A DNA stretch of 64,000 bases from Chionoecetes opilio. Taxonomy: Eukaryota; Arthropoda; Malacostraca; Decapoda; Majidae. The stretch covers positions 76,001 to 140,000 of the forward strand of contig JACEEZ010010078.1 in assembly GCA_016584305.1 (NCBI GenBank). The letters run 5' to 3'. Shown here one piece after another: positions 1-50,360 of the stretch. The position numbers and the translations under genes were made by a program. Every line of letters starts with the position of its first letter. Positions within the stretch are counted from its first letter, which is position 1. The notes under the pieces are model-generated. The model was not told where the DNA came from. It ran no database searches and saw only the letters and a list, made by a program, of their open reading frames with translations.

Positions 1-540
1 TTCTTCAAGTACAGGTACCTCTCTTTTTACGGGGAGTTTGAATTCCCAAGCTTTGAATTAACGTGATGTGAAAAATGGAGCATTTTTTTCAAATTACGTT
101 TTATAAATTTGAATAACGCGATATTTCCAAGTCAAAGAATGCGTAGCTGGTGCAGTTTAAAAGAGTGGCCATCAGATGCCCCTTGCTTTTCCCCCGCATC
201 TGCTATCCCACAGCGTCACCCAGTTTTAAAAACTTATGCAAAGTCTCACTCACCAAATCTTACCATATTCCAGGAATTAATAATTTAGATTTTACAGGTC
301 TGTGTACGTACATTGTTATGGGAAAGTATGTTCACATTACGCGAAATTTACATTACGCGAGGTCTCCAGGGACACAACCGTCACATAAATCGAGCGGTAC
401 CTGTACTATGTTTATTGCCTGTGTTTACGTGCTTTTGGCTTGCCGCGGGAGAGAGGAGTTGCCTTCGGTGACGTCATCGAGTCATGGCGCGTCGTCTGCT
501 AGTTGTCAGGAGCGTTTTGGAAGCTCGGGGAATTTACAGA
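1..540. other. no gene recognised
   Basis: I see no gene, splice-consistent exon or complete repeat here. The 150-codon open frame starting at 150 has no family signature and ends in a dispersed repeat. A stretch near 440-500, with a GACGTCA box, faintly resembles the interior of the repeat copies at 42.1 and 53.2 kb. Confidence 0.5.
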
Positions 541-685
541 TTTTTATTACGGATTATTTAAAAACGGCTGACTGGATGCAAAAAGTAACAACATATTGTT
601 GATATACTCGATAATGGCTATATTTTAACTACTTAAAATCAGGAATGATGAAATGGTCTGGACGATTACTTTAAAAATCTTGGTT
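541..685 (+). repeat. MITE-A, right-end fragment
   Basis: This segment matches 53604-53740 closely: the phrases ATATACTCGATAATGGCTAT and TCAGGAATGATGAAATG are shared, and both end in a TCTGGACGATTACT terminus. The complete copy at 53153-53726 has this terminus inverted at its other end, so this is the right part of a short inverted-terminal-repeat element. A third partial copy lies at 42120-42330. No left end or target duplication is visible here. Confidence 0.7.
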
Positions 686-689
686 CAAT

Positions 690-805
690 TATGTGTAAGC
701 ATGGAAGGCGATATTACAGAAAGGGTGCTGCAAAGGAGGAAAATGATTGGATCTTTAGGACGTATGATGCAAGGAACTACTGAGCATGAACGTAAAAAAG
801 GCACT
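690..805 (+). pseudogene. LINE reverse transcriptase C-terminal fragment
   Basis: The + frame from about 690 encodes a peptide with EGDITERVLQRRKMIGSLGR followed by MMQGT. This resembles the stretch after the reverse transcriptase domain of crustacean non-LTR elements, where a conserved IGSLGR..KG segment precedes the C-terminal region. Only about 35 residues are recognisable before the frame becomes unrelated sequence. It is not a gene of the host. The family match is from memory and rests on a short peptide. Confidence 0.45.
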
Positions 806-828
806 GAGATTTATATTTATTATTTTAC

Positions 829-2190
829 ATCACAAAGAACTGGCTGCAGGCAAAAAAAAGTAACAAAAGGCCGCTTAGTTGCCAGTCCCTATATAAAAGA
901 CAGTAAGAGAATAAAGAAAGGGGTGAAGGCCAATTTAGTTCAGGAGCTGTCTTGTCACTCCTCTCTTGAAGGAATTTAAGTCGTAGGAAGGTGGAAAAAT
1001 TGAAACAGGATGAGTGTTCCAGATTTTACCAGTGAAAGGGATGAAAGAGTGAAGATACTGATTGACTCCTGCATTAGGAAGATGGACATAATAGGGGTGA
1101 GAATGAGTAGAAAGTCTTGTGCAGTAAGGCCGCGGGAGGGGGGGACGCTTGCAGTTAGCAAGTACAGAAGAGGAGTGAGCATGAAAATAACGGTAGGAGA
1201 GAGCAAGAGAAGCAACACTGCAGCGGTGATATATAGATTGCAGACAGTCAGTCACAGAAGGGGAATTGATGAGACGAAAAGCTTTTGACTCAACCCTGTT
1301 TAGGAGAGATGTATAAATGGATCAAACATGATAAGCATACGCCATACATGGGCGGATAAGGCCCATGTACAGAGCAAGCAACTGAAAGGGAGAAAAAAAG
1401 GGACGCAGATGCCACAGGCCACCTAACTTCTTAGAGGCTGTTTTAGCAAGAGATGAGATGTGAGATTTCCGGTTCAGATTTTTAGTAGAGGAGAGTCAAA
1501 GAATGTTCATTGCAGAAGGAGTGTCGAGTGTTGAGTGTCATTGAAGAAGAGGGGATAGTTGTCTGGAAGGTTTTGTCGAGTAGATAGGTGAAGAAATTGG
1601 GATTTTGAAGCATTGAACCAAAACAAGGTTTGCTTTGCCCCAATCAGAAATTATAGATAGATCAGAGTTTAGGTGCTTTGTGGCATCTCTCCGTGAATCA
1701 CTTCGTTCCTGTTGAGTTGGACATCTAATGAACGACGTAGGAAATGCAGGGTAGAATCATCGAATCATCGGTAGAATCATCGAATAGAAGAGTGGATAAG
1801 ACATTGAGATAGACTTAGATCATTAATGAATAATAGAAAGAGAGTGGGTGATAGGACAGAACCCTGAGGAACACCACTATTGATAGACTTTGGATAAGAA
1901 CAATGACAGTCTACAGTAGCTGCAATAAAACGGTTTGAAAGGAAAATTAAAATTAAGGTGCAGAGAGGATAGAAACCGAATGAAGGTAGTTTGGAAATTA
2001 AAGATTTGTGCCGGACTCTAAAGCTTTTGATATGTCAAGGGCAACAGCAAAAATTTCACCAAAACCTTTAAAGGAGGATGACCAAGATTCAGTAAAGCTA
2101 GAAGATCGCTAGTAGATCTTCCTTTACGGAAACCGTACTGACGATCAGGTAGATGCTTAAGAATTGTGGAAATTATCCACCAACCACCCT
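829..2190 (-). mobile_element. Jockey/CR1-like LINE J1, degraded 3' half
   Basis: Read on the minus strand this is the 3' part of a non-LTR retrotransposon. From 2180 downward one sees a QYGFRKGRSTSDLLALL block (RT motif 2 region), a block equivalent to GVPQGSVLSPTLFL near 1870 (in a broken frame), and the end of the protein at 935-1255 with PRPYCTRLSTHS, SFIPFTGKIWNTHPVS and YDLNSFKRGV. Numerous stops and frameshifts break the frame, so it is dead. It lacks the endonuclease half. A second copy of the same 3' end lies at 3540-4128 in the same orientation, which fixes the 3' boundary near 829. Confidence 0.8.
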
Positions 2191-2293
2191 CTCAATTAGT
2201 AGTGGTAGTTTTGTCCCCCCCCCCCCTTGGTAATGAGGGAGGTGTTGTTCTCTCACCATAGGGGGATAATAGGAATGTGTGTATATATATATA
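2191..2293. repeat. low complexity (poly-C and TA tract)
   Basis: A run of about 14 C at 2213-2226 and a short TA tract at 2281-2295 separate the LINE from the next element. Nothing else is visible. Confidence 0.7.
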
Positions 2294-2395
2294 CAGTACC
2301 CTCCCGAGTTTGGCGCTTGGTTTCTTCACAAGGCATAGCGCTAAACTCGAGGATCGCGAAACTCGGGTATTGAAAACACTGTACAAATGCTTATT
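2294..2395 (+). mobile_element. Tigger-2 terminal fragment
   Basis: The sequence starts TACAGTACCCTCCCGAGTTT and ends in a TGCTTATTTAG block. The same 100-bp terminus occurs at 11600-11694, 32090-32200 and at both ends of the element 39952-40930. TA flanking and the CAGTA start fit a Tc1/mariner, Tigger-type DNA transposon. The interior is missing here. Confidence 0.7.
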
Positions 2396-2435
2396 TAGTC
2401 ACTTTCTCCACCCGAAAATACCCTGAAAATGCCCC

Positions 2436-2632
2436 GAGCCCCTGTCCACCCAGCAGTGAATGGGTACCGGGTGTTAGCCCGGGTTATGACCCGCCTCCCG
2501 GAGTGGTCGGCCAAAACTAGAGGACAGGAGAGGAGGAAGAGGAGGAGAGGAGAGGGCCTACGAGCTTGAGCTTGAGTTGGGAGTCACCCAACTGATGCTG
2601 TCGGTGAAGCCTTTGGTCCGGCGTTCTATAGG
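2436..2632 (+). repeat. SINE-like repeat S1 (AAGCTC/CTTGAT-tailed)
   Basis: The unit begins near CCACCCAGCAGTGAATGGGT and continues to GGGAGTCACCCA and GTGAAGCCTTTGGTCCGGCG. Related copies occur at 11290-11545 (opposite strand), 39640-39890 and 54170-54515, usually with runs of CTTGAT or CTTGAG. At 54.5 kb the same block abuts the 3' tail of a LINE, so it may be a SINE sharing that LINE's tail, or a LINE 3' UTR fragment. Confidence 0.55.
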
Positions 2633-2689
2633 CATAGATGTATAAATAAATAAAAAAATTAAAAACACCTGTATTTATGTTTAGCTGTG

Positions 2690-3382
2690 TATGCCACTTC
2701 GCTTCTCAAAACTTTTCAAACCAGGCTCGACTAGCCTTCAACACATCAGTCTCAGAACTTGAACCTGGGATTTTCTTGAGCAAATCCTGGTGCAAAAGCC
2801 TTGCTTTCTCACAAATGATAGCCTCCGAAATACCGTCGCCGGCCAACTGCTTTTCGTTGATCCAAATCAATAGCAACTTTTCTACTTCTTCTAAGGGCTG
2901 CGATCTTTGCTTGGTGATCACAGTCACTCCTTTGGCAACATTAGCATCCTTTATTGCTTCCTTGTTCTTGAGAATGGTACAGATCGATGACTTTGCTAAG
3001 CTGAACTGCAAAGCCAGATCCGAGACGCGAACACCATTTTCATGCTTCCGTATGATCTTTTTCTTCACCTTTATTGTTGTTTTCATTATTTTCCTTTTCA
3101 CCTATACGCTTTCACTAGCTTTCTAAGGACCCATGGTGGCTTATGGAATGAAAAAAATAGAAGAAATAATGCACAACACAAGAAAAATTGTCAAAATCAA
3201 AGGACAGTTCGGAGCGGATGTTCTCCGAGTGAGGGTCGCGGCATGACTAACGACGTGCAACAACAAGCTTGTTTGGCAACCGAGTTATCGTACGGCAACC
3301 AGTGCAATTATGAGTTTGAAATTATGTTCATGAACCGATTTGTTCAAAAAGTGAGACGTTAGAAACCCGAGGTTTGACTGTA
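2690..3382 (-). mobile_element. Tigger-1 transposon, 5' part
   Basis: The 5' terminus on the minus strand reads TACAGTCAAACCTCGG, typical of Tigger/pogo elements, with TA at 3381-3382. It is followed inward by a transposase N-terminus (2706-3101). The element is cut off at about 2690, before the catalytic DDE domain. Confidence 0.8.
2706..3101 (-). pseudogene. Tigger transposase N-terminus (truncated)
   Basis: The 131-residue frame has a pipsqueak/CENP-B-type helix-turn-helix at about residues 8-50 (motifs KKKIIRKHENGVRVSDLA and LAKSSICTILKNKE). A second, Tc5/CENP-B-type DNA-binding helix bundle follows at about 70-130 (EEVEKLLLIWINEKQ, LLKKIPG, ASRAWFEKF). This order matches jerky/TIGD-like transposases, where WF-RF ends the DNA-binding half. 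The DDE catalytic domain is absent: the frame stops exactly after the WFEKF motif. It would have bound the TIR at 3382. It is dead as a transposase, although a DNA-binding-only protein could in principle be made. Confidence 0.85.
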
Positions 3383-3393
3383 TATCGAATATA

Positions 3394-4135
3394 TATAATA
3401 CAATAAACCCTTCATGCTCGCGGGGGTTAGGGAACAGAGACACCCGCGAGTATCGTAAATCCGCGAGCATGACATTAGTCATTCATTTACCCATAGGTTT
3501 TTATTTATTTTTATTTTTTTTTTTTTTTTTTTTTTCCATTTTTTTTTTTCATCACAAGAAACTGGCCAAGGGCACAACAAAAATGGGTAACACAAAGCCC
3601 GCTTAGTCGCCAGTCCCTATAAAGAAGACAGTAAGAGAATAAAATAAAAACAGAGGGGTGAGCCAATTTAGTTCGGGAGGTGTCTTTTTACTCTTCTTTG
3701 AAAAAGATTTAAGTCATAGGAAAGTGGAAAAAATAGAAACAGGAAGAGAGTCCAGAGTTTACCAGTGAAAGGGTTTGAAAGAGTAAAGATATGATTAACT
3801 CTTGCTTTGGGAAGAGGACAGAAGAGGGATGAGAATGAATAGAAAGTCTTGTGCAGCGAGGCCGCGGGAGGGGGGGGGGCATGCAGTTAGCAAGTTCAGA
3901 AGAGCAGGAGCATGAAAATAACGGTAGAAGAGGCAAGAGAAGCAACATTGCAGCGGTGATTTAAAGATTGAAGACAGTCAGTCAGAGGAGAGGAGTGATG
4001 AGATGAAAAGTTTTTGACTCAACCCTGTTTTGGAGAGCTGTATGAGTGGATCCTCCCCAAACATGTAGACATACTCCATACATGGGGGGATAAAACCCCT
4101 GTAGAGAGCAAGCAATTGGGAGGAGTAAGAAGAAG

Positions 4136-4168
<33 letters not shown>

Positions 4169-4229
4169 GGTTGAAAAACCGTGAGTAATCAAAACCCCGA
4201 GCCTTAAACCCGGAACATGAAGGGTTAGT
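3394..4229. mobile_element. Tigger-like MITE interrupted by LINE J1
   Basis: The left end AATAAACCCTTCATG with a CGCGGGGGTTAGG block and the right end CATGAAGGGTTAGTG are inverted copies, each beside TA-rich flanks. The interior is almost wholly a LINE J1 fragment (3540-4128). The pairing is inferred from about 14 shared bases. A similar CGCGGG-GTTAGG terminus sits at 41936. Confidence 0.4.
3540..4128 (-). mobile_element. LINE J1, second 3' copy
   Basis: The copy is colinear with 829-1400. It shares the start TCATCACAA-GAACTGG, the block CGCTTAGT-GCCAGTCCCTAT and the protein end (3709-3948: PLPRPRCTRLSIHSHPS). It is bounded by T-rich sequence at 3510-3550 and an A-run at 4137-4165. It is frameshifted and non-functional. 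Confidence 0.8.
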
Positions 4230-4241
4230 GTATATATATAT

Positions 4242-4286
<45 letters not shown>

Positions 4287-4306
4287 TATATATATATAAA
4301 ATATAC
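4211..4306. repeat. (AT)n microsatellite
   Basis: Alternating TA repeats are interrupted only by AAA triplets. No other content is seen. Confidence 0.95.
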
Positions 4307-4307
4307 C

Positions 4308-4914
4308 GTATTTGCCGGCGCATAAGACGCCCCTCCGCATAAAATGCACCCGTATTTTTCATAAATATTTTTAGAGAAAAAAATTAGTGTTTTGCGGACA
4401 TATTTACTTTCTTAAATTTATTAAGTTATAAAAATAAAGGTTTTGTCAGGGAAATCAAATGATTTTAAGCATGTACCCAAATACAATATTCACAGTGCAG
4501 AGAATGTGAATGAAAAATTATACTAGTTAGAATGTAAATAATGTGTAGGGTAACCAAAATCGGTCATCATTATATGCAGGATGCACCACGAATTGATATT
4601 CTAATATTATCTACCTATGACATTTAGCTTAGATTTAATGTTGTAAGTATGCCTTTGTTGCTTTTCTGCTATGTGTTTAGACTTAGTGGAAAATTTGCAG
4701 TAAAGATAATGGTATTATTTCGGTAGTGGGCTTTCAAGTCTTAGGATTCTTACTTCCATTAACGTATATCTTTCTTCATTCTGTGTATTTTGAGCTCCAT
4801 TTCCCATGGTGCAACCGAATATTAATGGCATTACATGTGACATGTAATGTGACATGTGACATGTGACATGTGTACATACATTTGACATTCGATCAGGCTG
4901 TTTCATGTGGGAAA
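4308..4914. repeat. dispersed repeat ends and TGACATG minisatellite
   Basis: TACCGTATTTGCCGGCGCAT at 4308 resembles the TIR of the element at 51793-52537 (TACCGTAAATGGCGGCG). Positions 4716-4830 are an inverted copy of 14430-14560 (shared block AGTC-TAGGATT-CTTAC). At 4826-4875 the heptamer TGACATG is repeated about six times. No gene signal is seen before about 4915. Confidence 0.6.
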
Positions 4915-7900
4915 TCACATAGCTGGAAGGAGAAACTGTCGAACGTCTCAACTGGGACGGGGTCCACCACACGGCAAAGAGTGCTTGATGCAGCCATTCA
5001 GAGAAACGACTATGAGATTCAAATGCGAATGCTGTCAAACACTGACTTGTTTGCAATGGATGCAAAATATCATCGTATCGCTCTTGCTATTCGCATTACA
5101 TCTCGCTTACCAATATTAAAGCTGCTAGTGCTAGGGCTAAGGTTGATAAATCTGACAATGCGTGTGCCTTCAAAAGTTTGTGTAAGGAGATTGAAGAGAC
5201 TGTCCTGTCCAAAACCATCTCTACCACAACCTTGTCTGTCCTGAATGAACGATTGGTCACTATATCAGCAGAGGTCAACTCTAAAACCAACGAGTCTTGT
5301 ACTACATGGAGATTGAAGGAGAAATTACAGAAGCATTTCGGAGACAGGATTTCATTCATCGTCCAGCCTGAGAAGTCTGATCTTGTATGCTCAGGGGATA
5401 TCACAGTTGCCGAGGCCTTGAAACACATTGTGAGGCTACAAGTGCATTTAAATGAGATTGGTGAATGTGAACTCGAATCCTCTGATGATATCAATTCAGA
5501 AGAGGACGCTGTTGTCTTGCATAAGGCAGCTGGTATCATCAGGAAATGTATCGGTGACATTACATTTCAATCTGATCGTTATGATTCTAGTGGGAATATG
5601 GAGACAAAAAAGTGCAAGGACTTTGTTCCAAATCCTTTGTATGATTTCGTTGCATGGTGTACTTCAAAATAAGACTTTGACAGCGCTACTAGCTATGAAT
5701 CTGAGACTCACATGGGAAACATTGAAATGAGAGTTCTTGCAATATGTCACAACATGATTTCTCTAGTTTGTAAAATCCATACTCCAATAACATTTAGTTT
5801 AGGTGTCAAGCTGCACCACGACCATTGTAGTCGAGAACTGATAGATGACCTGTCCTCTCTTGGACACAGCATACCTTATGATGAAGTGCGTAGATTCCTC
5901 ACTGCCATTGCTTTGGACCAGCTGTCAACCAAGTCTGACGTTCATATACCACGTGACATTTCTGTCTATGATCCTGAGAATGTTATTAAGACCACTGTTG
6001 ATGCCGCAATTGACAATTTCGATCAAAATGAACAGACAATAGACGGAAAGAACACTACACATTCAATGGCTGTGGTGTTGTATCAAAGGTCTCCTAGGCC
6101 AGAAGAAACACCTTGCATTCCAAGATCAAACCTAAAAACCCTAGATGCACAGAGCTGTGATGAGGAGGAAATCAAACGCTACAACAAACCCCATACAAAA
6201 ACCAAAAACCATGTGTGAAATGGGAAGTCAAAAAACTGGATAAGTCTGCTAGTGATGTGGTACTAAAAGATTTGTTTTGGGGAAATGGCCGGGGGCAAGT
6301 CCCCTGAAACTCACGTATTCCGGTTTGGGGGGTGGTTTCAATTCTCTAGTTAGCGAGAGAGAAATTTCCCAAATGACTCGAATATGGTATCTCCCTTCAT
6401 TATGCGCCACCCTTGATTTCCCTCTACGATCACACGACTTTGCTGAAATTGGTTAAAATTTGCAAATGCAGTGGGACAAGAACATGTTCTGGTCACTGCT
6501 GACCTGGCAATATATAGCAAGGCTGAACAGATTCTCTGGGACTGAGCCAGATCCCTTGGCTGGTCGAGTGATGATGAGGCTTGGTGGGATGCATCTCACT
6601 AGGGCCCTTTCATAGCCAGTATAGGGAAGCTGTTTAGTGATGGTGGTCTCCACAACATGCTGACAGTACCTGAAGTGTATGCTCATGCGTCTGTGAGTTT
6701 GATGTTGCAAGGGAAGCAGTATGCAGAGGTCAAAGAGGAATCAGACTGGTACACGAAGCACTGTTTAAACTTGTTTCTATCAGCTGCCGAAACCTTGCAA
6801 TAAAAAACAAGTTGCCCTGGTTGGAGGTGAGACCCCCCACTTAATTGCAGATCTAGAGAATACCTTCAAAATGCAATCCCCGGAAGCCTGCACGCTGTGT
6901 GTCAGGAGATTGAAATGCGCTTGTCTTTCCTCTCTTCTCAGTACAATGAAGAAGTTCAAAGACACAGGAAGAGAACAATCAGCAACTTTCCCATTACTGG
7001 ATTAGCTTTCTGGATGCTGGTGACACCCTCTTGAAGTTACTTGGGCAGACCGTGAGGTGATTTTGAAATGCACCTTACCGCCGTCCTTGAAGTCATACCG
7101 TATTTCTTCCTGGCAGGCCGCAGCAACTATGCATGATACACCCCAGTCTATTTTGCGGAAAATGCGTCACTTGTAGGTGTCGGCTCCCCGAAGTTTCAGC
7201 ACATGTCGGAAGGTGGTTTCATTGTGAAACGATCAGAAAGGACTTTCAACTGCATTCCTACGGATCAGGCTCTCGAACAGAGTATCAATCGCGAGGCTAA
7301 AAGTAAAGGTGGTGTCATCGGTTACCCCACTGAGGAAAGGACCCTTAGTTCGCTTGGCTGCTGACCCGCCACATAACCGGGGAATACGCAGAACGATTAA
7401 AAGAAATGGTACCCTACCAAATCCAGATACACATGAAGAACTTGGACATACTCGAGTGCCCAAGGACCAGAATGATGTTAAAGTCATCAAGGAATACATA
7501 AAGGGAAAACAATGCCAAGATCCATTTGACCTGGAAAGTGTGGCAACCTCCTAGTTAATATAACTAGTGGACAGGTGGCACAGATGAAGTCGAAGAGTCG
7601 TTTGAAGGGAGTGCCACAAAAGGGTCGGGAAATGTTCAATCAGTTCACGAGAAAGGCTTGGGGACGAAAAGAAGGGGAATTTTCGGGGACCCAATTCCCC
7701 AAGACAGTAGTCAAAACGTTTTCTGCAAATGAGGAAGTGTCTTTCCAGTGATAAGGAAGGGAAGATAATGATCGATATGGAGGTACTCTTCAGAAGACTG
7801 CTTGCAGTGTCAAAGAACCGTGATGTGGGATATGTGCAAGGTCCTCTCCTACGAATTGGCAGCTGTTCCGCCTTCAATGTTCCACGCGATGGTTCGATGA

Positions 7901-9290
7901 GGAAGATCAACAAAGCAGATCTTGCCAAAAAGCTGGAAGCAAATACGGATGAAATTCTTGTCCTTCCTAGTCAGAATTTCCCCCACGTCATCGCAGTCTG
8001 CTGCATACCTCATTGATGGCATGGCAATGTGTCAGGCCCTGAACGAGAATCATTTAAAGACTTTCAATGATCTTGGAAAGGTGGTTCTGGACCGAATTTT
8101 GCGTCTTCTGAAGAACAGTGCCATGGATCCTTCCATTTGACGTTTTGACGTTGGTCTTGACCGGTACGACAGAGAACAGTCAATTAAGTCGACTGAACGA
8201 CACAGACGAGGAAGATGGATTCCGGATTTAACTACCAGATACAAGGGAACAGGGACGTCCGACTACAGGAACTTCCTCAAAAACCAGTACCAACAAGGCT
8301 AGTTAGCTTCATTCATCTGTCAGTACATTTGCGACAATGGAAAGATTCCTGCCTGCAGATAAATCGGTAGTACTGGTGGTGGATTTTAAGATGGAGAAGT
8401 GGTCAAAGTTTGAATGAAGTGGGTTGTGGGCAGTCTTGAGGGTTGTACAGCACACAAGAGGAGGGGGACACTCGTTGGTATTGCATGCAATCATGTTATC
8501 GAGAGACCCTCCAAGGATAATCATTCGGGGACGACACGGATGTCCTCGTTTGTTGGTGTATTTCTGGAGCAGGGGGGCACTGGCCGATGAAGTATATGCA
8601 TGCTGGGCACTCAGGGAAATTAGTCTCCAAAGGGAAAGATTCATACCTGTTCACCATATCAGTACCAAAACCGGCAAAGCAGCATGCAAGTCATTCCAGC
8701 CGGGCATGCCTGTCAGGATGTGACACGACAAGTGCTCTATACAGACTTGGAAAGCGAAAAGGCATATTCAGCTCTCACCAAAAATTGAGATGCCTTTCCC
8801 GGGCCTGGAAGCATTTCCCGGATGTGCCTACTTTCCTAGATACCGCAAGGCGATTTGTCCTTCTCATGCATGGTAAAAAAAATAAAAAAAATTTAGTTCA
8901 CTGAATGAGCCCTTTGTTTCGTAAATCGCCACCCCAACTGATAAGCCCCCATCCTTTCTGCCACCAACAGATGATGCCTTCGAAACATGTATGGGGGCCC
9001 AATACCAAGTAGCAGTGTGGTGTTTAGAGTCCCCAAACGCAAAACCTGAGACATGAACCCAGTTGGCCATGGTTGGCATTTTGAATGCAAAGGGTGAACT
9101 GCGTCAACAATGTACAAGAATGAATCGGCACCAGCAGAGGTTTGAGACCTAACTCATTTGTACTGCACTGACAAAGGTTGTCGCAGACAAAAAGCCGTGT
9201 GTCATTGCTGGACTTGAGGCACTGACATTTGTTCCTGTGGTGGAGAATGTGCGAATCGGCCGGAGATAAGTGAGGTGGCAAATGGAGATG
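4915..9290 (+). pseudogene. decayed large PIN-like/CXC multidomain gene
   Basis: Across 4.4 kb the plus strand carries, in order but in shifting frames, segments of one large protein type I remember only as uncharacterised, multi-copy proteins in crustaceans, molluscs and cnidarians. Recognisable blocks: MDAKYHR (5060) with a frameshift near 5082; a 378-codon frame 5082-6218 broken by one in-frame TAA at 5670 (ACAFKSLCKEIEETVLSKT, FVPNPLYDFVAW); VTADLAIYSKAEQILW (6489); EGGFIVKRSERTFNCIP (7208); KINKADLAKKLE (7904); a PIN-like block YLIDGMAMCQALNENHLKTF (8009), then LDRYDREQSIK (8157); a GDDTDVL block (8530) and CLSGCDTTSALYRLGKRKG (8708); finally a cysteine cluster of TSO1/tesmin CXC type, CTDKGCRRQKAVCHC (9160) and CSCGGECANRPE (9231). 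It has many stops and frameshifts, so it is non-functional. No terminal repeats or target duplication are seen. Confidence 0.7.
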
Positions 9291-9336
9291 AAGTCGGAGA
9301 TGATACGGACATGATGGTGTAAATACTTTTAAACCC

Positions 9337-9629
9337 AAGTAATCTTTGTAAGTGCCAAATAAAAAATTTTTAAGATATTCCAACATTCTCAATTTTTTAT
9401 GGGTTAAATGGGTTAAAAGGCCATGTTTTAATTAGAATCTGACTGTAAAAATCTTTTTCATAAAGTAGACATCCTAATAGTGTAAGTAATCTTTGTAAGT
9501 GCCCAAATAAAAAATTTTAAGATATTCAAAATTCTCAATTTTTTATGGGTTGAAAAGGGTTAAATGGCCATGTTTTAATTAGAATCGACTGTAAAACATC
9601 ATTTTTCATAAGGTAAACATCCTAACGAA
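9337..9629. repeat. two-copy tandem duplication, 147-bp unit
   Basis: AAGTAATCTTTGTAAGTGCC begins at 9337 and again at 9484, and the two units stay colinear to the CATCCTAA block. They differ by a few single-base indels and substitutions, so the duplication is not brand new. No coding content is seen. Confidence 0.9.
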
Positions 9630-9948
9630 TCCAACAAAACCTCATTTGCCTTGTTCTAAAGTGTGGAGGGGTAAACTCCTTAAATATGGCCCTTTTTGGC
9701 CTCGGGCCACTCCACTATGTCTGGGACCAGGATTAGAGGGTGACCTGACATTGACCTGACTTGTCCTCGCCGACACAACTGCAACACCAGCAAGGTAATT
9801 CAGTCAGCCACAGGACACACACGCCGCGCACGTCTTGTCCCCACGTTGTACAATGACTCGCTGTCAAATAAACTACAAAGCCACGACGCCCTTTCTCCAT
9901 CCTTGTGTGTATAGACAGACTCCCCAAGATAGTACACCTCCCTCCCTC
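9630..9948. other. no feature recognised
   Basis: Unique-looking sequence with no family signature or splice-consistent frame. Confidence 0.5.
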
Positions 9949-10250
9949 TCACCGCTCACACTCCTTCAAATAAAACTTTAACACGCTCTTTGTTTCACTA
10001 TTCCATTTATCAACAATACTCATTACAACGAAAGTTTCATCACCATTTTCTGCCTCCCTTCTATCATCTCCTTCCAACTGTTGTGTCAACTTGTGTGGCC
10101 CGAGACGAATGCGGGTTAAGGCGACATCTAATATGCGGGAGGTTTGTCTTTTCCATGGGTGCGGGGAGGAGTCTGAGCGGTAATGACCCATGGTGGGTGC
10201 ACGGAGAGCGTCGCCGAGTGAAGTATCCCAGGTGAAGCGGCAGACCTGAG
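9949..10250 (-). pseudogene. LINE RNase H/C-terminal fragment
   Basis: The minus frame carries LGDALRAPTMGHYRSDSSPH, PWKRQTSRILDVALTRIRLG and PHKLTQQLE. These resemble the end of the RNase H domain and the following conserved ALTRLRLGHT segment of I/Jockey-type LINEs. The usual zinc-knuckle (C..C...H....C) that follows is not visible. The frame extends to an ATG at 10317 in a CCAAGATGGCC context, but the first 25 residues show no LINE similarity. Confidence 0.5.
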
Positions 10251-10623
10251 ATATCAAACATTTTACAATGGAGAGCAGCAGCGGGGGGTGGATGATGTTT
10301 ACATCTGACACGGCCATCTTGGCAGCAAAAATCGCTATCTTGTTGCCCCAGTTCTTGTTTTCTCTTAAACTCCAACCTTTTCTTAGTATTATGCATTACT
10401 GTTGATAACAGTTACACATTTGTGCTCAGTGGACTATTGCTCAACACAGATCACTCCAGACCCCTTTAGTAATACACCACCGGCTGTTCTGCATTCTCTG
10501 CCCGACCTCTCATTCGCTAATATGGCCGCATTAGACGCAGGGTGAACTTTGCATTCCTTTTTAAGTACCACATAGTACTATTAAGTACCATAAGTACCAA
10601 CCATAGTACCACACACGTCCTTG

Positions 10624-18841: not shown

Positions 18842-19095
18842 GTTAGGTTAGGTATACTTTGTGGTTAAGGTTAGGTTAGGTTAGGTTAGGTATACTTTGT
18901 GGTTAAGGTTAGGTTAGGTTAGGTATACTTTGTGGTTAAGGTTAGGTTAGGTTAGGTATACTTTGTGGTTAAGGTTAGGTTAGGTTAGGTATACTTTGTG
19001 GTTAAGGTTAGGTTAGGTTCGGTTAGGTATACTTTGTGGTTAAGGTTAGGTTAGGTATACTTTGTGGTTAAGGTTAGGTTAGGTTAGGTTAGATT
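18842..19095. repeat. telomere-derived tandem array
   Basis: Seven copies of TATACTTTGTGGTTAAGG alternate with one to four TTAGG pentamers. The pentamer is the canonical arthropod telomere repeat. The 18-base spacer also appears in the loops of FB-2 copies (16963, 26200-26400), so the array may derive from a foldback loop rather than from a chromosome end. Confidence 0.9.
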
Positions 19096-19104
19096 TTTAC
19101 ATAT

Positions 19105-22100
19105 AGTGACTTTAATGATTTTTTTGGGAGCCATAAATCACTTATATTTGCTTCCCCCACCCAAAAACCCCGTATTCCCGCCAGTTCCCCAGGCTTGTTG
19201 GCTATAGGGGGAAGAAAAAAAAGATAGGGGTGAAGGACTTCTTCCAAAGTTTTACCGCCCTTTCTTTCCCTGCCACCTGTGGGGAGAGAAGGGCACAACA
19301 GGGCAGTATATACACAGACATAAGTCCCTCCTATACGTCTTCTACATTCCCACGCAAACATTTTTCCAAGGCCTGCTTTAAAAACATCTTAGTTATTTCT
19401 ACTATTTTCCTTCTCTCTTCATTACCCCCATACAGTCCTAGTAAGGATTCCCCCATCCACCTCGTATATCCTTCTATCCCATTCACCGTCTCCTATCACT
19501 CCTAATAGGGCCTGTATCAGCCTCCTCCTCTCCTGCTCATATCTGCCACACTCTATTATCAAGTGTTCAATAGTTTCCCTTGTTCCTCTACAGAAGCTAC
19601 AGGCCTGGGCCTGCCCATCCCTACTCCTACCTAGCCTTCACCTCTACTGTTCCTGTCCTTGCCTTCACCAACAGGCTGTTTCCCCAATCACCTGCATGCC
19701 AGTGAAGTGCCTTGGGCTTCTCTTTCCTACAGTACCACTATAACGTGGATTTACCCTCCATACCTGCTCTCCACCTAGCTAGTCCATTGTCTTCTATTCT
19801 TATCTTCACCTCCTTGGTTCTTATCCTGTCCCAGGTTTTTACTAGGTTTTCCCTCCTTTTCCACCTCTCTAATTCCTTTATCCATGTTGAGCTTGTCCCA
19901 ACCTCTTTCAGGATCTGCTTCACCCATCTATCCTCACTAAGTCCCTCTATTTTCTTCAGCATGTTAAGTTTCCCTTTTAAAATCCTTTCCCTGAAGGTGC
20001 TCCACCCCATATCTCCTCGAATGGCCTCCACAGCTGTGCTGGTTGGGGCTCCTAATCCCCATCTACCCATAATGTTCTGTGTCCTCTCTAGCTTAGTAAA
20101 CCGATAATAGGTTATCTCAGACCCATACAAGCAATATGGCACTGCCATTCCTTTCCAAAGACTCCTACCTACTTCATATTTGTTAATTGTCCTACTTCCC
20201 CCGTTCATGATCATGCCTGTCATCCTCCTAGCCTTTCCCTCATTAGTTTTCCTTTGTCTTTCTCCTCCAACTCCTTCCTTACTTACTTCCAGTCCTAAGT
20301 ATGTATACCTATCAACCACCTCTAGAATGTTGTTCCCTTGAACCCATTGACCTTCCTCTCTGCTGTTGAACTCCATCACCTTACTCTTCCTGACACTGAA
20401 CCTAATGTTCCATTCCCTTCCATAACTGTTGACTATTCCCAGCAACTCCTCCATGTCTTCCTTCCTCTCTGTCATGAGAACTACATCGTCTGCATAGGCT
20501 AATCATCCTAGTTTTCTATTCCCCACTCTGACTCCCTTCTCTGACTTTCTGATCCTCACTATCAGTTCCTCCATGTAAATGTTGAGGAGTGTTGGAGAGA
20601 TAACACATCCCTGCTGGACTCCTATGTTATTCTTCATCCATCCTGTGCTGATATCTCCTAGTGTGAACTTTACCTCATTTTCCTTATACAACTCCCTAAT
20701 TACCTGCACCACCTTATCATCTACTCCTAGGTGTGCCAATAGTCTCATTCATTTTCCTCTATCAACCAAGTCGTATGCTTTCTCAATATCTATAAATACC
20801 AGGTACAGTTCCTCATCTCCCCTCCGGCTCCTTTCTATGATTTCCTTTATCACCAACAAGTTTTCTAAACCTCCTCTACCTTTTCTGAACCCATTTTGCT
20901 CTTCTCCCAGCACCTTATCTTCCTCCAGCCATGACATTAGCTTGTTGTTTATCACCCACCCAAATACCTTGGCCAGTACATTCATCACTGCTCTGGGTCT
21001 GTAATTTCCTATTTTCTCTTTTGGCTTCCCTCCTCCTTTATGTATAAGTGTCACCCTACTCCTTTTCCAGTCTTGGGGCACCTCACCTTTCTCCAACATC
21101 TCTAAACAGATTAACTAGAGCTAGTTTCAACCCTTCTCCTCCATACTTTATGAATTCCCCTATGATTCCATCTGTTCCTCCGGATTTGCCTATCTTAATT
21201 GCTTGTATAGCAGAAGCTACATCCTGCTCCTCTATTACTATACTTTCCATTTCTCTTTCTTCACTGTAGATAACTAAGTTCCCTACTTCCTCTTCCACTT
21301 CTTCCTCCTTCCATATGACTTTCCTCCAGTATTCTTCCACTACAGGTATAATCTCTTCCTCTCTTGTTAACTCTCTATCCTCCATCTTCAGCCTAACTTT
21401 TTGGTGCCCACTGGCCCCATCTAGGTTTCTCCTCAGTCTTCTCCATCCTTCCTTTTCTCTTTCCCTTCTAGGCATATTACGAAGTACCTGTGCCTGTTCT
21501 TCTTCCCACATTCCTATCTTCTTCTTAACTAAGGACTGGGCTCTTTTCTTTGCCTCTTGGTATCTATCCCAGGCCTCCCTCCATTCTTCCTCATACCTCC
21601 CCCCTTGAAGTCTTGCTAATTTGGCCAAACTTCTCTGTTTCCTGTTCTTTTTTTTTCTATCTCGTATTGCCTGCCTGACCTCCTTATCCCACCAACCTTT
21701 GAGCCTCATTTTTCCTATTTTGAATTTCTTTGTTCCTATAGCTTTCTTGGCTTCCTGTCTAATGACGTTCTTGATCCCTTGTTTCCACTCACTAACAGTG
21801 CTCCCAATCCCTTCTGTATCTCCTGGCATGGTATTCTCCATTCCTCGACAATACTCTATCCAGTTAGCATTTTTCACATCCCATTTTTCTTTCCATATTA
21901 CCTTCTTAGCATTATTTTCCTCCCTGTGTTTGCCACACGTGATCCCTATCATGCTATGATCTGATATATCTACATCCTCATTTTTCCAAATCCTGCATCC
22001 TTGTCTATTTACAGACTCATTGACGAGTATATAATCTATCGCCGACTCGTTGTTTCTATCTCTCCATGTTGTTGGGTTTTCTAACTCCCAATTCTTTATT

Positions 22101-22454
22101 CTACAGCCCGACCTTTCAGCAATGTCTAATAACAACTCTCCGTTCCTGTTAACTCTTTCCTCCATCAGGCTGATATGACCATTCATGTCGCCCATTATCA
22201 CCCACTTGTCCCTGCCAACCTTTTCTTTGATCTCAAGCATCGCCTCAAACAGCTTTCTATTGTCTTCCTGATTTCCATGACCTTCTACTCCCATGTACAC
22301 TACTGTCACCCACCAGACTTCTTTATGTTCCCTAACTTTTACTGTTACTATATCTCCTTTATTATAACCAAGCTGGTTTTCTATATCACTGGTTGGGTTT
22401 ATTTCTTCAATAGTTCTTCCTGCCTTTTCTTTCATGAGTATTCCTGCATCTCCC
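19105..22454 (-). mobile_element. LINE D, 5'-truncated, comparatively intact
   Basis: A minus-strand non-LTR retrotransposon with an apurinic-type endonuclease, a reverse transcriptase and a C-terminal Cys-His knuckle. The 3' UTR includes a block shared with 15585-15650. The 5' end is lost at a run of about 18 T (22455-22472), followed by foldback FB-3. Both flanks are telomere-like repeats but in opposite orientation (TTAGG at the left, CCTAA at the right), so this is not a simple insertion into one array. Confidence 0.85.
19738..22453 (-). pseudogene. LINE D endonuclease-reverse transcriptase
   Basis: The coding region is split into four large frames. 21083-22453 holds the endonuclease (WVIMGDMNGHI, SAIDYILVNE, DISDHSMIG) and the linker to RT (GKSGGTDGIIGEFIKYGG). 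20749-21099 holds RT motifs (VTLIHKGG, NYRPRAVMNV, EEQNGFRKGRGG, VFIDIEKAYDLVD). 20503-20748 has GVQQGCVISPTLLN. 19738-20475 begins just after AYADDVVLM at the frame join near 20490. A further frame near 19500-19620 carries the knuckle (CSFCRGT, HLIIECGRYE). Breaks are one stop near 20747 and shifts near 21090, 20490 and 19730. Few lesions imply recent activity. It would nick the target and copy its own RNA at the cut. Confidence 0.85.
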
Positions 22455-22471
22455 TTTTTTTTTTTTTTTTT

Positions 22472-22757
22472 ACAAAATGCCTCCCTCTTCCTCATCTTGT
22501 GACCTGCATCGCTTTTGTTTCGGAGGCGCACCCGTGGCTACCTTACCTAACCTAACCTAACCTAACCTGAACCTTACCTTACCTTACCTTACCTTACCTT
22601 ACCTTACCTTACCTTACCTTACCTTACCTTACCTTACCTTACCTAACCTAACCTAACCTTTAACCTCCTAACTGGGTCCAATAATAAAAAGGTTAATAAA
22701 ATACCAAACAAAAGCGATGCAGGTCACAAGAAGAGGAATAGGGAGGCATTTTGTATA
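22472..22757. mobile_element. foldback element FB-3 with AACCT/ACCTT loop
   Basis: The left arm ACAAAATGCCTCCC with GTGACCTGCATCGCTTTTGT is inverted at 22703-22757 (ACAAAAGCGATGCAGGTCAC). The loop (22535-22670) is almost entirely AACCT pentamers flanking about 15 ACCTT pentamers. The left arm adjoins the truncated 5' end of LINE D. Confidence 0.8.
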
Positions 22758-23149
22758 CAAGGAGACGTATTCCTCCTCCAACCTAAAATGTTCTATATCT
22801 CCGAAACTATTGATTTGCGACGGAAAGTTCAAGGAGAAAATGTCTCTTAGAATACAATAAGGTAAACAAAAACCATGCTCCCAATTGTGTAGGGAAGTTT
22901 GGTGCTGTCGTAAAATAATACCCCATTGACTACCGTAAATAGTTATAATGGACGAGAACTTCCAGGTTGTTTTCAGAGACACCGACTAATTTTTCCTGGC
23001 CTACAATAGGTGCTTTTTCGGCACTCGTGGGGGAGTGTGGTCCCGTCACTTACAGCTGATCTTCCACGTGGTCTGAGTTGCCAATTCATGCATTCACGGT
23101 CCACTGTTACCACGCTGGGCGAGTAGTCCCTCCCCCTCTCTCTCTCTCC

Positions 23150-25352
23150 TTTTTTATTTTATTTTTTTTATTTAAACTTTAGTACATTTTGGTGTTATTA
23201 GAGTTAAAGCTCTAGGTTTTACACTAGAGCTATCTATAGCTACATATAATATTAAAAAGACATTTTATATTTAATAATAATTTAGGCCATCAACCAGCTG
23301 TTCACCCCCCGCTTAAAGTCTTGTAGCGAGGCGTGGTGGTGGAGGTCGGTTTGGTGAACTAACTGGTTCCACAGACGGCCGTAGCGGGGTAAGAAGGAAC
23401 GTAGGTGGTGCTCTCTCCTGGAGAAGGGCACAGTCACTTGCTCCTGTCTGTGTGAGGCGACACGGGTGGAGTGAAGGGGCGGCGGGGGCCTGGGGAGCTT
23501 GATGGCTGCCAGGTGGGGCGTGTGGAGATTTAGTGCCTTGTGCATGACACATAAACCTGCCACATCCCTGCATTCCTGGAGGGGTTGGAAGGAGTCAGGC
23601 GCGTGGTGGGGACGTTTATCGCTAACTAGTCGCTGGGCTCTTCTCTGGACGCGGTCTAGTGTGGCCAGGTAAGAGGGCGGGCAGGAAGACCATGCTAGGG
23701 GGGGGTATTCCATTAGGGGATGTACCTGAGCCTTGTACAGAACCTCAACCCCCTTGGCATCTAGAAGGTGGGAGATGCGCCGGACACAGCTGAGTCTCCA
23801 GGCCGAGTTTTTAGCTACTCTCCTGGCATGACTGGTGAAGGTCAGTCCCGCGTCAAACTCCACCCCAAGGATGGAGATGGATCTCTGAAGGGGGAGTGAT
23901 CTGCCCTCAAGCCGTATGTCCGGTGCAGGCAGGTTGGTGATGTCTTGCCTGTGGAAAATGAGCAGAGACTGGGTTTTGTCAGGGGCCAGGCTGACCTGCC
24001 ATAGACTACTCCAGGTGACGATGTTGTCCAATGCCAGGTTGATGCGGCACACCGTGTCCTGCCAGTCACGTCTGTCGCAGGGGAAGGCAAGGGTGCAGTC
24101 ATCAGCGTAGGCCTGGGCCTCAGGAATGAGCTGGAGAATGTCATTGAAATAGACATTCCACAGAAGAGGCCCGAGTACGCTGCCTTGCAGGACGCTGGCG
24201 TGGATGGGTTGCTGGCTGGAGGTGTGGCCGTTGATCACCACCCGTAAGGTCCTGTCTTGGAGGTAGTCCTGGATGAGCTGCAGTAGGGCGCCGCGCACTC
24301 CCAGGCTCCTCAGCTTGGCAGCGAGACCTCGGTGCCACACCCTGTCAAAGGCTCCGGCGATGTCCAAAGCCACGACAAAGGTGTCCATTCCTCTATCCAG
24401 CGAGTGGTTCCAGGAAGCAGACTGAAGGAGGAGCAGGTCTGCAGCTGACCTTCCCTGCCTGAAACCAAATTGCTTGGAGTTGAGGAGATGGTGGGCGTCC
24501 AAGAAGGTGTTGATCTTGGCGGTGATGAGGGACTCCAGGATTTTCCCAACAGTGGTGAGAAGGGAAATTGGGCGGTAGTTCTTTGGGTCCCGTTTGCTGT
24601 TTTTTTTTGGATGGCCACCACTCTTGCCTCTTTCCATTGCGTGGGCCACTTGCACGAGGAAAGAATGTTGTTGAAGATGATGGTGAGTGGTGGAGCGAGC
24701 TGGGCAGCACATCCCTTTAGGAGGTGAGGGCTGATGTTGTCGGGCCCTAGCGCCTTCTTGGGATCTATTTGCCGCAGCTGATGTTCTACTTCCTTATTGT
24801 TAACTGCGAGACTCTCCAGAGAGGCCCTGGTGAGGGATGGTATCTCTGGGGGCTCGCATGAGGGATCTGGCACCGACATCTTAAAAGAAAAATGAGCTGC
24901 CAACAGCTCAGCCTTGTCCTTGTCGCGGACAGCCACTGACCCGTCTGGTCTGGTGAGCGGCGGAATGGTGTTGTCAGCAAAGAGGCCTTGCTGCTGCTTC
25001 ACTCCACACCACCACTCCTTACTGCTCACTGACTGGCCGCTGTACTTGGCCTTTAAGTCCTCTCTCCAGCGTTGTATGGCCTGCTTTTGGACCTGACACA
25101 TGGTCTTGCAGGCTTCTTTGTGCCGATGTTTGTTGACTTGGGAGGGGTGGGACTTGTACCGCAGCCAGGCCCTGCTCTTGTTGTCAGCAGCTCTCCTACA
25201 CTGAAAACCAAACCAAGGCTGATCATGGGGTTTGGATTTGTAGGTTTGGCTGGGTATATGGTTTTTCTGGAGGGATAGGAGGAGGTTGGAGAAGGTCTCC
25301 ACTTGTGTGTTAACGTCGCCGTGGAGAAGCTCCGTCCACACAATGGAGTCCA
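23150..25352 (-). mobile_element. Jockey-like LINE inserted in the (CT)n arm
   Basis: A minus-strand LINE with a poly(A)/(TAAAA)-type 3' end (T-rich at 23150-23175) is 5' truncated at about 25352. It sits inside the (CT)n tract of the left arm of the long-TIR transposon: CTCTCTCTCCT occurs on both sides, so any target duplication is hidden in the repeat. Confidence 0.85.
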
Positions 25353-25353
25353 A
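23282..25353 (-). pseudogene. Jockey-like reverse transcriptase, one frameshift
   Basis: Two overlapping minus frames (24310-25353 and 23282-24712) form one RT-containing polypeptide if shifted once at the T9 run near 24600. In order: KALGPDNISPHLLKG and WKEARVVAI (palm entry), NYRPISLLTTVGKILE, QFGFRQGRSAADLLL, VALDIAGAFDRVWHRGL, LQGSVLGPLLWNVYFNDI, AYADDCTLA (catalytic DD), LGVEFDAGLTF, then a C-terminal FLPRYGRLWNQLV and LQDFKRGVNSWL. The upstream endonuclease is missing through 5' truncation. The single lesion is in a homopolymer and could be a sequencing error. The copy looks young. Confidence 0.85.
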
Positions 25354-25356
25354 GTT

Positions 25357-25998
<642 letters not shown>

Positions 25999-26189: not shown

Positions 26190-26415
26190 TGGTTAAGGTT
26201 AAGGTTAGGTTTGGTATACTTAGTGGTTAAGGTTAGGTATACTTAGTGGTTAAGCTTAGGTTAGGTTTCATTAAAACCTATAAGGTTAGGTTAGGTATAC
26301 TTAGTGGTTAAGGTTAGGTTAGGTTTCATTACAACCTATAAGGTTAGGTTAGATATACTTTGTGGTTAAGGTTAGGTTAGTTTTCATTAAAACCTATAAG
26401 GTTAGGTTTGGTATG
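26190..26415. repeat. TTAGG-derived repeat in FB-2 loop
   Basis: Repeats of TATACTTAGTGGTTAAGG with TTAGG pentamers alternate with TTTCATTAAAACCTATAAGG. This is an expanded version of the short loop of copy 1 at 16930-17010. Confidence 0.85.
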
Positions 26416-29135: not shown

Positions 29136-31612
29136 TTCTTCTTCTTTCTGTAACGTCAGCTTTTCCCATAATTGTTAATGAGGTTAGAAGCCGATCAATT
29201 AAGGCTTCCAACTATCTCTATCCATTGCCTTAACTTCTTCAATGCCCAATGCTGCCAAATCCTCTTCAACACACTGCCTCCATGTCTTCCTTGGCCTGCT
29301 CGATGGATGGCGACTTGGAACTTACACTCTAACAGCTCTCCCCAATGCCTCACCACCTTCTCTCCTCTTCACGTGCCCAAACCACCTCAAACGCCTTACT
29401 CTCAGTGCTGTACTCAGCTCCTTCAATGCACATTTTCTTGCCACCTCTTCACTGAACACCTCGTCTCTCCATGTGATCCCAGTCATATATCTCGACATCA
29501 CACCCAACCAACACATCCTCCAACTTCTTCGTCAAAGCCCATGTCTCAGAACCATACAACAAAACTAATCTTATACATGCTTCAAATACCTACTCTTCCT
29601 CTGTTTTTCAGTGGAATACTCTTGTTTATCAGCAGTCCTGCTATCTCTCCACTTCATCCATGTAGTTGCAACTAGTTTTCTTACTGCTCTCTCCACTCCA
29701 CCCTCGCTATCTAACATGTCACCAAGATAACAAAACTGTTTTACTTCTTCTATTACATCACCATTCACTTCTATAGATTCTACCTCTTCCTCTTCTGGCC
29801 CCTTCTGTTGATTCTTCTTATACACACTGGACAGCAAAAATCTACCACCCTATTCAAGTTTCCTAGGCCCGAACATCTTTTATGGCACCACTTATCACAT
29901 TCCTTGCAACGAATAGAGTTTACTCCTACTCCACTACCGCACACTACACAGGGAAACCTTCCCACTTGTATATTTTGCTCTAATTTCTTGCCTGTTACCA
30001 TCATCTTCGTCTTGGACATATTCCTTTTCAGACCTCTTCTCTCCATTGTTTGCTTCCAATCTATAAATCTCCTCTCAAATTCCTCCTTTGTCTCAACTGT
30101 CAAGACTAAATCATCAGCATATAGCAGCTCCCATGGATCTCCTGTTCTGCACACCTCCGTGGCCTCTTCCATCAATACCACAAACAAAAGAGGACTGAGG
30201 ACTGAGCCTTGATGCACCCCAACACCTATCTCAAAGGCATCTGATATTCCTCCAGCTAATCTAATCTTTGATCTTGATCCTTCATTCAGTGCCATTACCA
30301 ACCTTACAAGCCTCTCTGGTACATTTTGTCTTCGTAATGCCCATCTAATTGTTCTTTTTGGAATCCTGTCAAATGCCTTTTTCCAGATCCACAAACACAT
30401 GATACAGCCTTTTCTTCTTATATTTCTCCTGGAGATGTTTTGTGATGAAGATTGCATCGGTCGTTTACTTTTCACCCAGAAAGCCAAATTGGCAGTCATC
30501 GATCTTGATGATTTTCTTAAGCCTTTCACACAACACCCTCTCCCAAATCTTCATCTCATGTTCTAACAGCCTCAAACCTCTGTACCCTCCAAATGATAGT
30601 GCATCTCCTTTTCCTTTAAAAAGTAGTAAGGTAAAACTATCTTTCCATTCTTCTGGACCTTTCTCCTCCCTCATAATCTTTTCAAAAACTCCAGTTAGTT
30701 TTCTGATACCTGTCCTTCCTGCTAGCTTCAGCATATCACTGCTTACACCCGATGGACCTGGTGCCTTACTATCTTTCATCCCTTTCAATGCTCTTACTAC
30801 CTCTTTTTCTATTATATTTTCAACTGGACCTTTCAACATTTCAACCTACTCCAGCTCAATGTTATTTTCTATATTTAGCAGTCTTTCAAAATATTCTCTC
30901 CATCTTTCTCTTACCTCCCTCTCCACCACTTTGATTTCTCAGTTTTCGTGCTTTAAATACTTTGCTCCTTGTACATCCTTCTTGTCTTTTCTCATCTGCT
31001 TAGCTACTCTGAACATTTTCTGCCTTCCTTCTGCTGTATTCAAATTCTGCTCCACTCCCCCGATGCTTGTTTCTTTGTTATTGCCACTTGCCTCTTGGTA
31101 TCATTTGTTCTTTCTCTATACATTCTTTTATCCACCTCACATCTTGATAGTTGCCTCTGTTTGAATGCGATTCTTATCGCCTTCATTTTTTGTTGCACCT
31201 CTATATTCCACCACCAAATCTCCCTTTCTCTACCTCTTCCAGATGTTAGTCCACACACCTCTTCTCCAGCACTCAGTATGCTTGCCTGTAAGTGGTGCCA
31301 GTCTCCCTCTCTTCCTTCCATTTTTGTTGCAAAGTTACTTCAAACTCCTGTCTCTTGTTGGCCTCTTTCAGCTTCCATGGTTTTATTCTTTGTACACCTT
31401 TTCTCTTTATTCTCTTCATCTTTTTTATTTTGAGATCTACCCGTACCAACCTGTGCTGCGTCAACCAAGCCTCTCCAAGTATTGCCTTACAGTTAATGAC
31501 TTGCACATCTGGTCTTTTCCTCATCAGCACCAAATCCAACTGTGTCTCTGATCCACCGCTTTTGTATGTAATTAGCTTTTCCCTGTCTCTTGAAATAGGT
31601 GTTTAGTATCCT
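29136..31612 (-). mobile_element. LINE Z (RTE-like), 5'-truncated
   Basis: A minus-strand LINE begins inside the endonuclease domain and ends in a GAAGAA-rich tail at 29136, where a Tigger-4 end is inserted at TA. Its 3' part matches the fragment 11695-12172. Flanking sequence at 31613 is unrelated. Confidence 0.8.
29320..31540 (-). pseudogene. LINE Z polyprotein with PHD-like finger after RT
   Basis: The reading order on the minus strand: end of endonuclease (QKRWIRDTVGFGADEEKTR, in shifted frame), then SKAPGPSGVSSDMLKLAG and the WKDSFTLLLFKGKGD entry motif, DCQFGF, HVFVDLEKAFDRIPK, GVGVHQGSVLSPLLFVV, LLYADDLVL (catalytic DD). Then comes an unusual zinc module: CVVCGSGVGVNSIRCKECDK with WCHKRCSGL and FCCPVCI, a C4HC3-like PHD pattern. 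The C-terminal segment is at 29322-29837 (YLGDM, YMTGITWRDEV, RVRRLRWFGHVKRREGG). At least four frameshifts or stops (near 30840, 30480, 29790 and 29530) inactivate it. The finger placed after the palm marks this family and may bind RNA or target chromatin; that role is inference. Confidence 0.8.
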
Positions 31613-35699: not shown

Positions 35700-36874
35700 G
35701 ACCAGATGAAGTGTATCCCAGAGTATTAAAAGAATGCAAAGAGGTTCTTAGTGAGTCGTTAGTGCACATTTTTAGGAAAACGGTTAAGATAGGCGATGTG
35801 CCGTTATTGTGGAGGAAAGGAAATGTAATCCCCATATTTAAGAAGCGAGACAGAGGATTAAAGTCAAATTATCGACCCGTTAGTCTAACGTCAGTGGTAG
35901 GTAAATTATTGGAATCTATTATTGCAAAAAAACATTAGAGAGCACTTAGAAAAACATAGTTTGATCAATGATTCACAACATGGATTCACCAAGGGTAGGT
36001 CATGTCTCACCAATTTATTGAGTATTTCTAGGAAAGTTTATGAGAAGGCAGATAATGATAAGGATTATGATATAATATACCTGGACTTTAGTAAGGCATT
36101 CGACAAAGTACCACACGAGCGACTCTTAAATAAGGTTAAGGCTCATGGAATAGATGGGAAGGTTCTTCGTTGGATCAAAGCATGGCTAAGTGATAGGCAA
36201 CAAAGGGTTACAATTAATGGTTCTAAATCTGAATGGGGACAGGTGACAAGTGGAGTTCCACAAGGGTCTGTTTTGGGTCCATTACTATTTTTGATTTACA
36301 TCAACGACTTGGATAGTGGGATTAGCAGTGATTTCAGCAAGTTTGCTGATGATACTAAGGTACGTAGGATTATTGGATCACAGTCTGATGTAAACATATT
36401 GCAGGGAGACTTAGATAAACTTAATGAGTGGGTAGTCAGATGGCAGATGGAATTTAATATTGATAAGTTCAGCGTTATGAATGTTGGTAGAAAAAACCCT
36501 GGTAATGAATACACCATAAGCAATGTATCGCTGAAAAATTCAAAAGGTGAAAAAGATCTTGGAGTGAGGTTGAGCCCAGACCTCCGACCTAGGAAACAAT
36601 GTATTGAGGCTAGAAATAGAGCTAACAGAGTGTTAGGGTTCATTACCAGAAGTGTTAAAAGTAGAAGTGCGGAAGTTATTCTAAAGCCTTATCTGGCTCT
36701 AGTCAGACCTCACCTAGACTATGCAGTATGCAGTTCAGTTTTGGTCTCCATATTACAGGATGGATGTAGCCTTGTTATAATCAGTGCAGAGAAGGATGAC
36801 CAAAATTATTCAAGGGATGTGTAACATCCCTTGAATTTTTTGAAAGCAAAAATTATGAGAAGAGATTGAAGCTA

Positions 36875-50350: not shown

Positions 50351-50360
50351 TTAAGGATCT

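Follow-up and report, generated by a model that had tools for sequence, protein, structure and literature searches.

The Element in the Window

The stretch of Chionoecetes opilio DNA analyzed here (64,000 nucleotides of contig JACEEZ010010078.1, hereafter ‘the window’) contains one copy of a repeated element that is very probably a 5′-truncated, non-functional cut-and-paste DNA transposon of the Academ superfamily, AcademX type (Table 1). An initial annotation, made from the letters alone, had described a decayed copy of an unnamed multidomain gene at 4915–9290, near the limits of the element but short of them. The left boundary lies where alignments of the window to other copies start, the other copies carrying on leftward past 4880, and the right end reads ...CACTCCACTA at 9717. 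The window copy lacks the left terminal repeat and the part of the gene that encodes the first ~131 residues; therefore, it is not capable of autonomy.

The gene was traced with an uninterrupted homologue, P0004 (1602 residues), of which tblastn covered 1470 residues in two overlapping pieces (best E-values of 0 and 9.7e-94), with 60 stops across the two. The match is colinear throughout, as expected for the single large multidomain protein initially proposed, and uninterrupted relatives encode one protein of ~1600 residues. The motifs quoted in the initial annotation are all present, in order and on the + strand, i.e., KYHR, LIDGMAM (8009–8029), LDRYD (8156–8170), DDTDV (8530–8544), GCDTTS (8716–8733), and the cysteine cluster. 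Five fragments of the gene from the window gave no match in a Pfam search.

Table 1. Parts of the transposon copy in the window.
Feature	Position	Strand	Basis or detail
5′-truncated Academ-like DNA transposon copy (very probable)	4880–9717	+	Left boundary from alignments, right end read
Broken transposase/nuclease gene	4881–9307	+	Residues 132–1601 of a ~1600-residue protein, several frames; tblastn of P0004
Second Cys/His segment	5046–5250	+	Sequence motif; KYHR at 5065–5076
Probable DDE/RNase H-type transposase core	6012–7277	+	Asp (DNFD) 6012, Asp (TADLAIY) 6501, Glu (TDQALEQ) 7275
5′ nuclease region (predicted), frameshifted	7890–9060	+	IDG 8015, FDRYD-type Asp 8159, EE-x-D 8458–8469, DDTD 8530–8541, GCD 8722
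Tesmin/TSO1-like cysteine cluster	~9164–9256	+	Pattern; frameshifted or altered inside
Additional tandem copy, inner part of right terminal repeat	9337–9477	+	Pairs with 9476–9625 in alignments to other copies; L010 alike
Right terminal inverted repeat	9488–9717	+	Right end read; length of ~230 bp inferred from six other copies

Genomic Copies, Termini, and Target Duplications

Genome searches returned at least 42 matches to window positions 7000–9200, 40 of them of at least 1.6 kb and the window itself among these, and at least 40 matches to 4600–6900. These counts are lower bounds, with 40 of 385 and 40 of 2042 candidates scored, respectively. One of the matched places lies on contig C18338, discussed below. 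Twenty copies were extracted with their flanks for comparison. The main pieces are ~96–98% alike when aligned to one of them, L009, and the ends are sharp, with unrelated flanking DNA. Nearly all copies have TAGTGGAGCGG at the left end and CCGCTCCACTA at the right end, and inverted repeats ~230 bp long were found in all six copies measured.

The analysis of ends included 21 sequences (the 20 copies and the window), 17 of which have both ends; L012, L014, L017, and the window fell outside this set for want of a recognized end. An exact 3-bp target duplication is found in 13 of the 17, and none match at 4–10 bp. By comparison, over 2000 shuffles of the right flanks, chance duplications of 3 bp averaged 1.9 and peaked at seven. 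Together, the 13 duplications comprise 39 positions, of which 36 hold A or T. Nine of the 17 copies measure 5.54–5.72 kb, and the remaining eight span 3.5–7.2 kb. The right terminal repeat is further elaborated by a tandem duplication of ~140–150 bp (window 9337–9625). The window has it, as do 14 of the 19 other copies aligned to L009; L009, L016, L017, and L022 carry a single unit, and L014 and L023 were unreadable in this comparison.

The gene is intronless in this genome. For instance, in L010, the homologue aligns over 1910–6715 in three pieces, with no gaps of intron size. The suggestion of a mobile or selfish gene was right, and the gene is multi-copy and intronless here, not a single-copy host gene with introns; the comparison of flanks and termini that the initial annotation called for revealed long inverted repeats and target duplications that it had not described.

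Many copies carry frameshifts or stops. Across the 20 copies, the non-synonymous/synonymous ratio is 0.35 for variants common to at least two (77 changes, three stops) versus 0.77 for private variants (835 changes, 44 stops), a contrast that likely reflects selection on the spreading lineage.

True Decay versus Contig Error

Against 14 copies, the window copy has a median of 13 gap openings per kb over 4880–6900, and against 21 copies a median of 27 per kb over 6900–9300, versus 1–4 per kb by the same measure in six other copies. One of these six lies on contig C18338, which is colinear with window positions 1–10553 at 96.7% and is, for this reason, either a second assembly of the window locus or its other allele. 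The C18338 copy has 26 gap openings per kb against the window in the 3′ half, yet just 2.3 per kb when set against other copies. Along the window, gap openings relative to C18338 number 10–17 per 500 columns at 3500–4500 and 6000–10000 and 0–7 elsewhere. Since gap openings concentrate in the window when compared with C18338 and other copies, the private frameshifts of the window copy are probably mostly contig errors; the two segments probably represent noisy consensus, and frameshift readings there are to be distrusted. The C18338 copy is likewise broken, with six aligned pieces, ten stops, and a start at the same residue 132. Thus, the description ‘decayed’ is only partly accurate, since contig error probably accounts for a large share of the apparent decay, a caution that a repeat in a noisy contig may appear more decayed than it is.

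Domains of the Encoded Protein

A database search with the unbroken 1196-residue frame of copy L019 (residues 400–1160 scored, best 7993 candidates scored) returned at least 91 proteins, 27 of which are at least 1400 residues long. The named sources include a sea spider, four fishes, a beetle, a coral, a sea anemone, and a priapulid, and the animal homologues are annotated as uncharacterized, ‘CRC domain-containing’, beta-glucanase, ankyrin, or under other labels. An alignment of 28 of the 91 revealed N-terminal Cys/His segments, near-invariant acids in a core, a second set of acids, and, at the C-terminus, a cysteine cluster. The pattern A/G-x-Y/S-H-x-x-C-Y, part of the second Cys/His segment, occurs in 18 of the 27 long homologues.

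Profile searches returned little. The Pfam matches, all weak, were obtained with homologues and with longer frames taken from other copies: DUF6589 at E 0.1 in six of 28 homologues (best 0.0012, below the Pfam cut-off), TCR in three of 28 (best 3e-5), and PIN_8 (E 0.01) and DDE_Tnp_IS1 (E 0.08) in one homologue each. A frame of copy L015 gave zero matches in a PDB sequence search, and a profile of the 28 homologues matched two entries: lin-54 at E 0.054 and, at E 1.4, an unrelated FAT-domain fusion. Similarly, NCBIfam yielded nothing useful for four homologues.

The core acids mark a probable DDE transposase, which the domain layout of the initial annotation had missed. Using P0004 numbering, D508 is kept in 41 of 42, D667 in 75 of 75, and E925 in 88 of 88 covered homologues among the 91, and H697 in 71 of 71 (gaps: five at H697, one at D508). 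An AlphaFold model of homologue P0059 (predicted local distance difference test, pLDDT, 83.2; predicted template modeling score, pTM, 0.67) places the first Asp (169) in strand 164–173, followed by strands 184–194 and 307–311 and helix 322–338. The second Asp comes directly after strand 344–348 and precedes helix 350–362, strand 370–374, and helix 376–394; then, past a long helical stretch, the Glu lies within or at the end of helix 599–604. This succession is the RNase H order plus an additional insertion, which suggests an RNase H-type core.

Downstream of the core, models of two uninterrupted homologues match EXO1, FEN1, XPG, and XRN in structure searches, with 10–17% identity in the EXO1/FEN1/XPG matches listed, so that the PIN-superfamily nuclease of the initial annotation reappears as a predicted nuclease fold. 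By FEN1 motifs, the acidic residues of this region correspond to the FEN1 active-site set. The predicted fold is common to FEN1/XPG/EXO1 and XRN 5′ nucleases; unlike them, the nuclease here is fused to a probable transposase.

The C-terminal cluster, also recognized initially, is found by pattern once in 47 of the 91 homologues, never in 44, and twice in none, and is carried by 45 of the 52 that reach a C-terminal GW motif. In the frame of copy L015, it is repeated within a local duplication. Its cysteine spacing matches one CXC repeat of Tesmin/TSO1/LIN54. Tesmin/TSO1 CXC proteins are defined by two such repeats, whereas the cluster here is single and the profile scores are weak.

Relationship to Known Transposons

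AcademX elements carry an XPG nuclease and a Cys8 finger, and Kolobok elements make a TTAA duplication, which is not seen here. The literature describes duplications of 3–4 bp for AcademX and 9–10 bp for AcademH, a difference related to the nuclease and the helicase (PMC10045372); a RecQ helicase is mentioned in Academ (PMC3627910), and curated bivalve Academ elements average 5565 bp (PMC10294476). The copies agree with AcademX, as defined in PMC10045372, in their duplications of exactly 3 bp, and also in the nuclease lineage encoded together with the probable transposase and in the terminal inverted repeats; their length is near the curated Academ mean (PMC10294476). The ~230-bp repeats and the tandem inner right repeat distinguish the family here, AcademX having been compared by description. 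AcademH belongs to the same superfamily by description but has a helicase and longer duplications (PMC10045372), whereas no copy among the 17 shows 9–10 bp and no helicase appeared among the 11 Pfam families found for 28 homologues at E 0.1. KolobokE, KolobokD, and KolobokP likewise combine a DDE transposase with an accessory nuclease, but of the lambda-exonuclease-like, DEDDh, or His-Me finger type (PMC9587614), versus FEN1/XPG-like here.

In summary, the testable features fit AcademX, though the fit is looser for the transposase core, and the copies constitute a well-resolved new family within the Academ kind as published, not a new system. The earlier view of an uncharacterized multi-copy family was correct in that the family is multi-copy and that sources leave the proteins unnamed, but the family fits the described AcademX lineage. 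A gene family widespread in animals, so far unnamed or otherwise labeled, is thereby given an identity. Our literature search found no paper on DUF6589, on Academ in Penaeus, or joining Academ with XPG and a Cys8 finger, and among 19 papers listed, none names both Academ and XPG. Mutation-accumulation lines of Daphnia magna include one Academ-1 gain (PMC8594854), and the superfamily therefore appears mobile in a living crustacean.

Weighing the Assignment

Several observations weigh against the assignment. Four of the 17 copies (L013, L015, L021, and L023) have both ends and no 3-bp duplication, and were counted as misses. The private-variant ratio falls below 1, so the selection contrast is not clean. 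DUF6589 and TCR scored below curated cut-offs where shown, and equally weak matches pointed to unrelated families, Mrpl_C and DUF5402 among them. Strands 2 and 3 of the modeled core are separated by ~110 extra residues that are partly helical, pLDDT is 53–80 near residues 170–210 of P0059, and no RNase H transposase was among the fold-search matches listed for both models, which the nuclease domain filled. For the nuclease, Foldseek ranks XRN1/XRN2 above Rad2 and FEN1 by E-value. The likeness to Academ and AcademX derives from published descriptions.

This last point, together with a Pfam yield of only a weak DUF6589 match, would suit a separate, undescribed DNA transposon superfamily that independently joined a DDE core, a FEN1/XPG-type nuclease, and a CXC cluster; we consider this unlikely, as the nuclease, the 3-bp duplication, and the length match published AcademX/Academ descriptions. 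Annotation of the animal proteins as uncharacterized, ‘CRC domain-containing’, or otherwise might instead suggest a multi-copy host family, a nuclease joined to a CXC regulator and spread by gene duplication with no transposon, but terminal inverted repeats and exact 3-bp duplications between unrelated flanks make this highly improbable. DNA viruses also have FEN1/XPG-type nucleases, and a fragment of an integrated virus or large virus-like element bearing a flap nuclease would account for that domain. It is just as improbable: in L010, a single gene fills ~4.8 of the 5.7 kb between mapped ends, so that no space remains for capsid or polymerase genes, for which there was no separate search.

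For an AcademX-type transposon, binding of the terminal repeats or the target may fall to the Cys/His segments at the N-terminus and the CXC cluster at the C-terminus. Cutting the ends and joining them to target DNA, staggered by 3 bp, would be the task of the DDE core; the duplications would arise by gap filling, and the FEN1/XPG-like domain, in the same chain, could cut branched or 5′-flapped DNA from excision or integration. It is conceivable, though doubtful, that the fused domain is obligatory in transposition, cutting the second strand or the 5′ flaps once strand transfer has taken place; if true, this would be a cut-and-paste pathway with its own flap processing, not reliant on host repair or hairpins. 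The homologues with long open frames offer test cases for what a flap-type nuclease does within a transposase.

Other Features of the Window

A frame on the − strand at 2706–3101 gave a match of the Tc5 DNA-binding type (E 5.3e-6) and a weaker one of the CENP-B N-terminal type, and is probably the remnant of a pogo/Tigger-like transposon. A ~580-bp repeat is present as two direct copies, 83% alike, at 815–1381 and 3538–4115. Frames at 19738–25506, 29780–30550, 34522–36824, and 50327–51131 resemble, by eye, non-LTR (long terminal repeat) retrotransposon reverse transcriptases or endonucleases. Degenerate, contig-internal arrays with GGTTAGGTTAGG, a sequence like the arthropod telomere unit, occupy 18842–19089 and 26225–26414.
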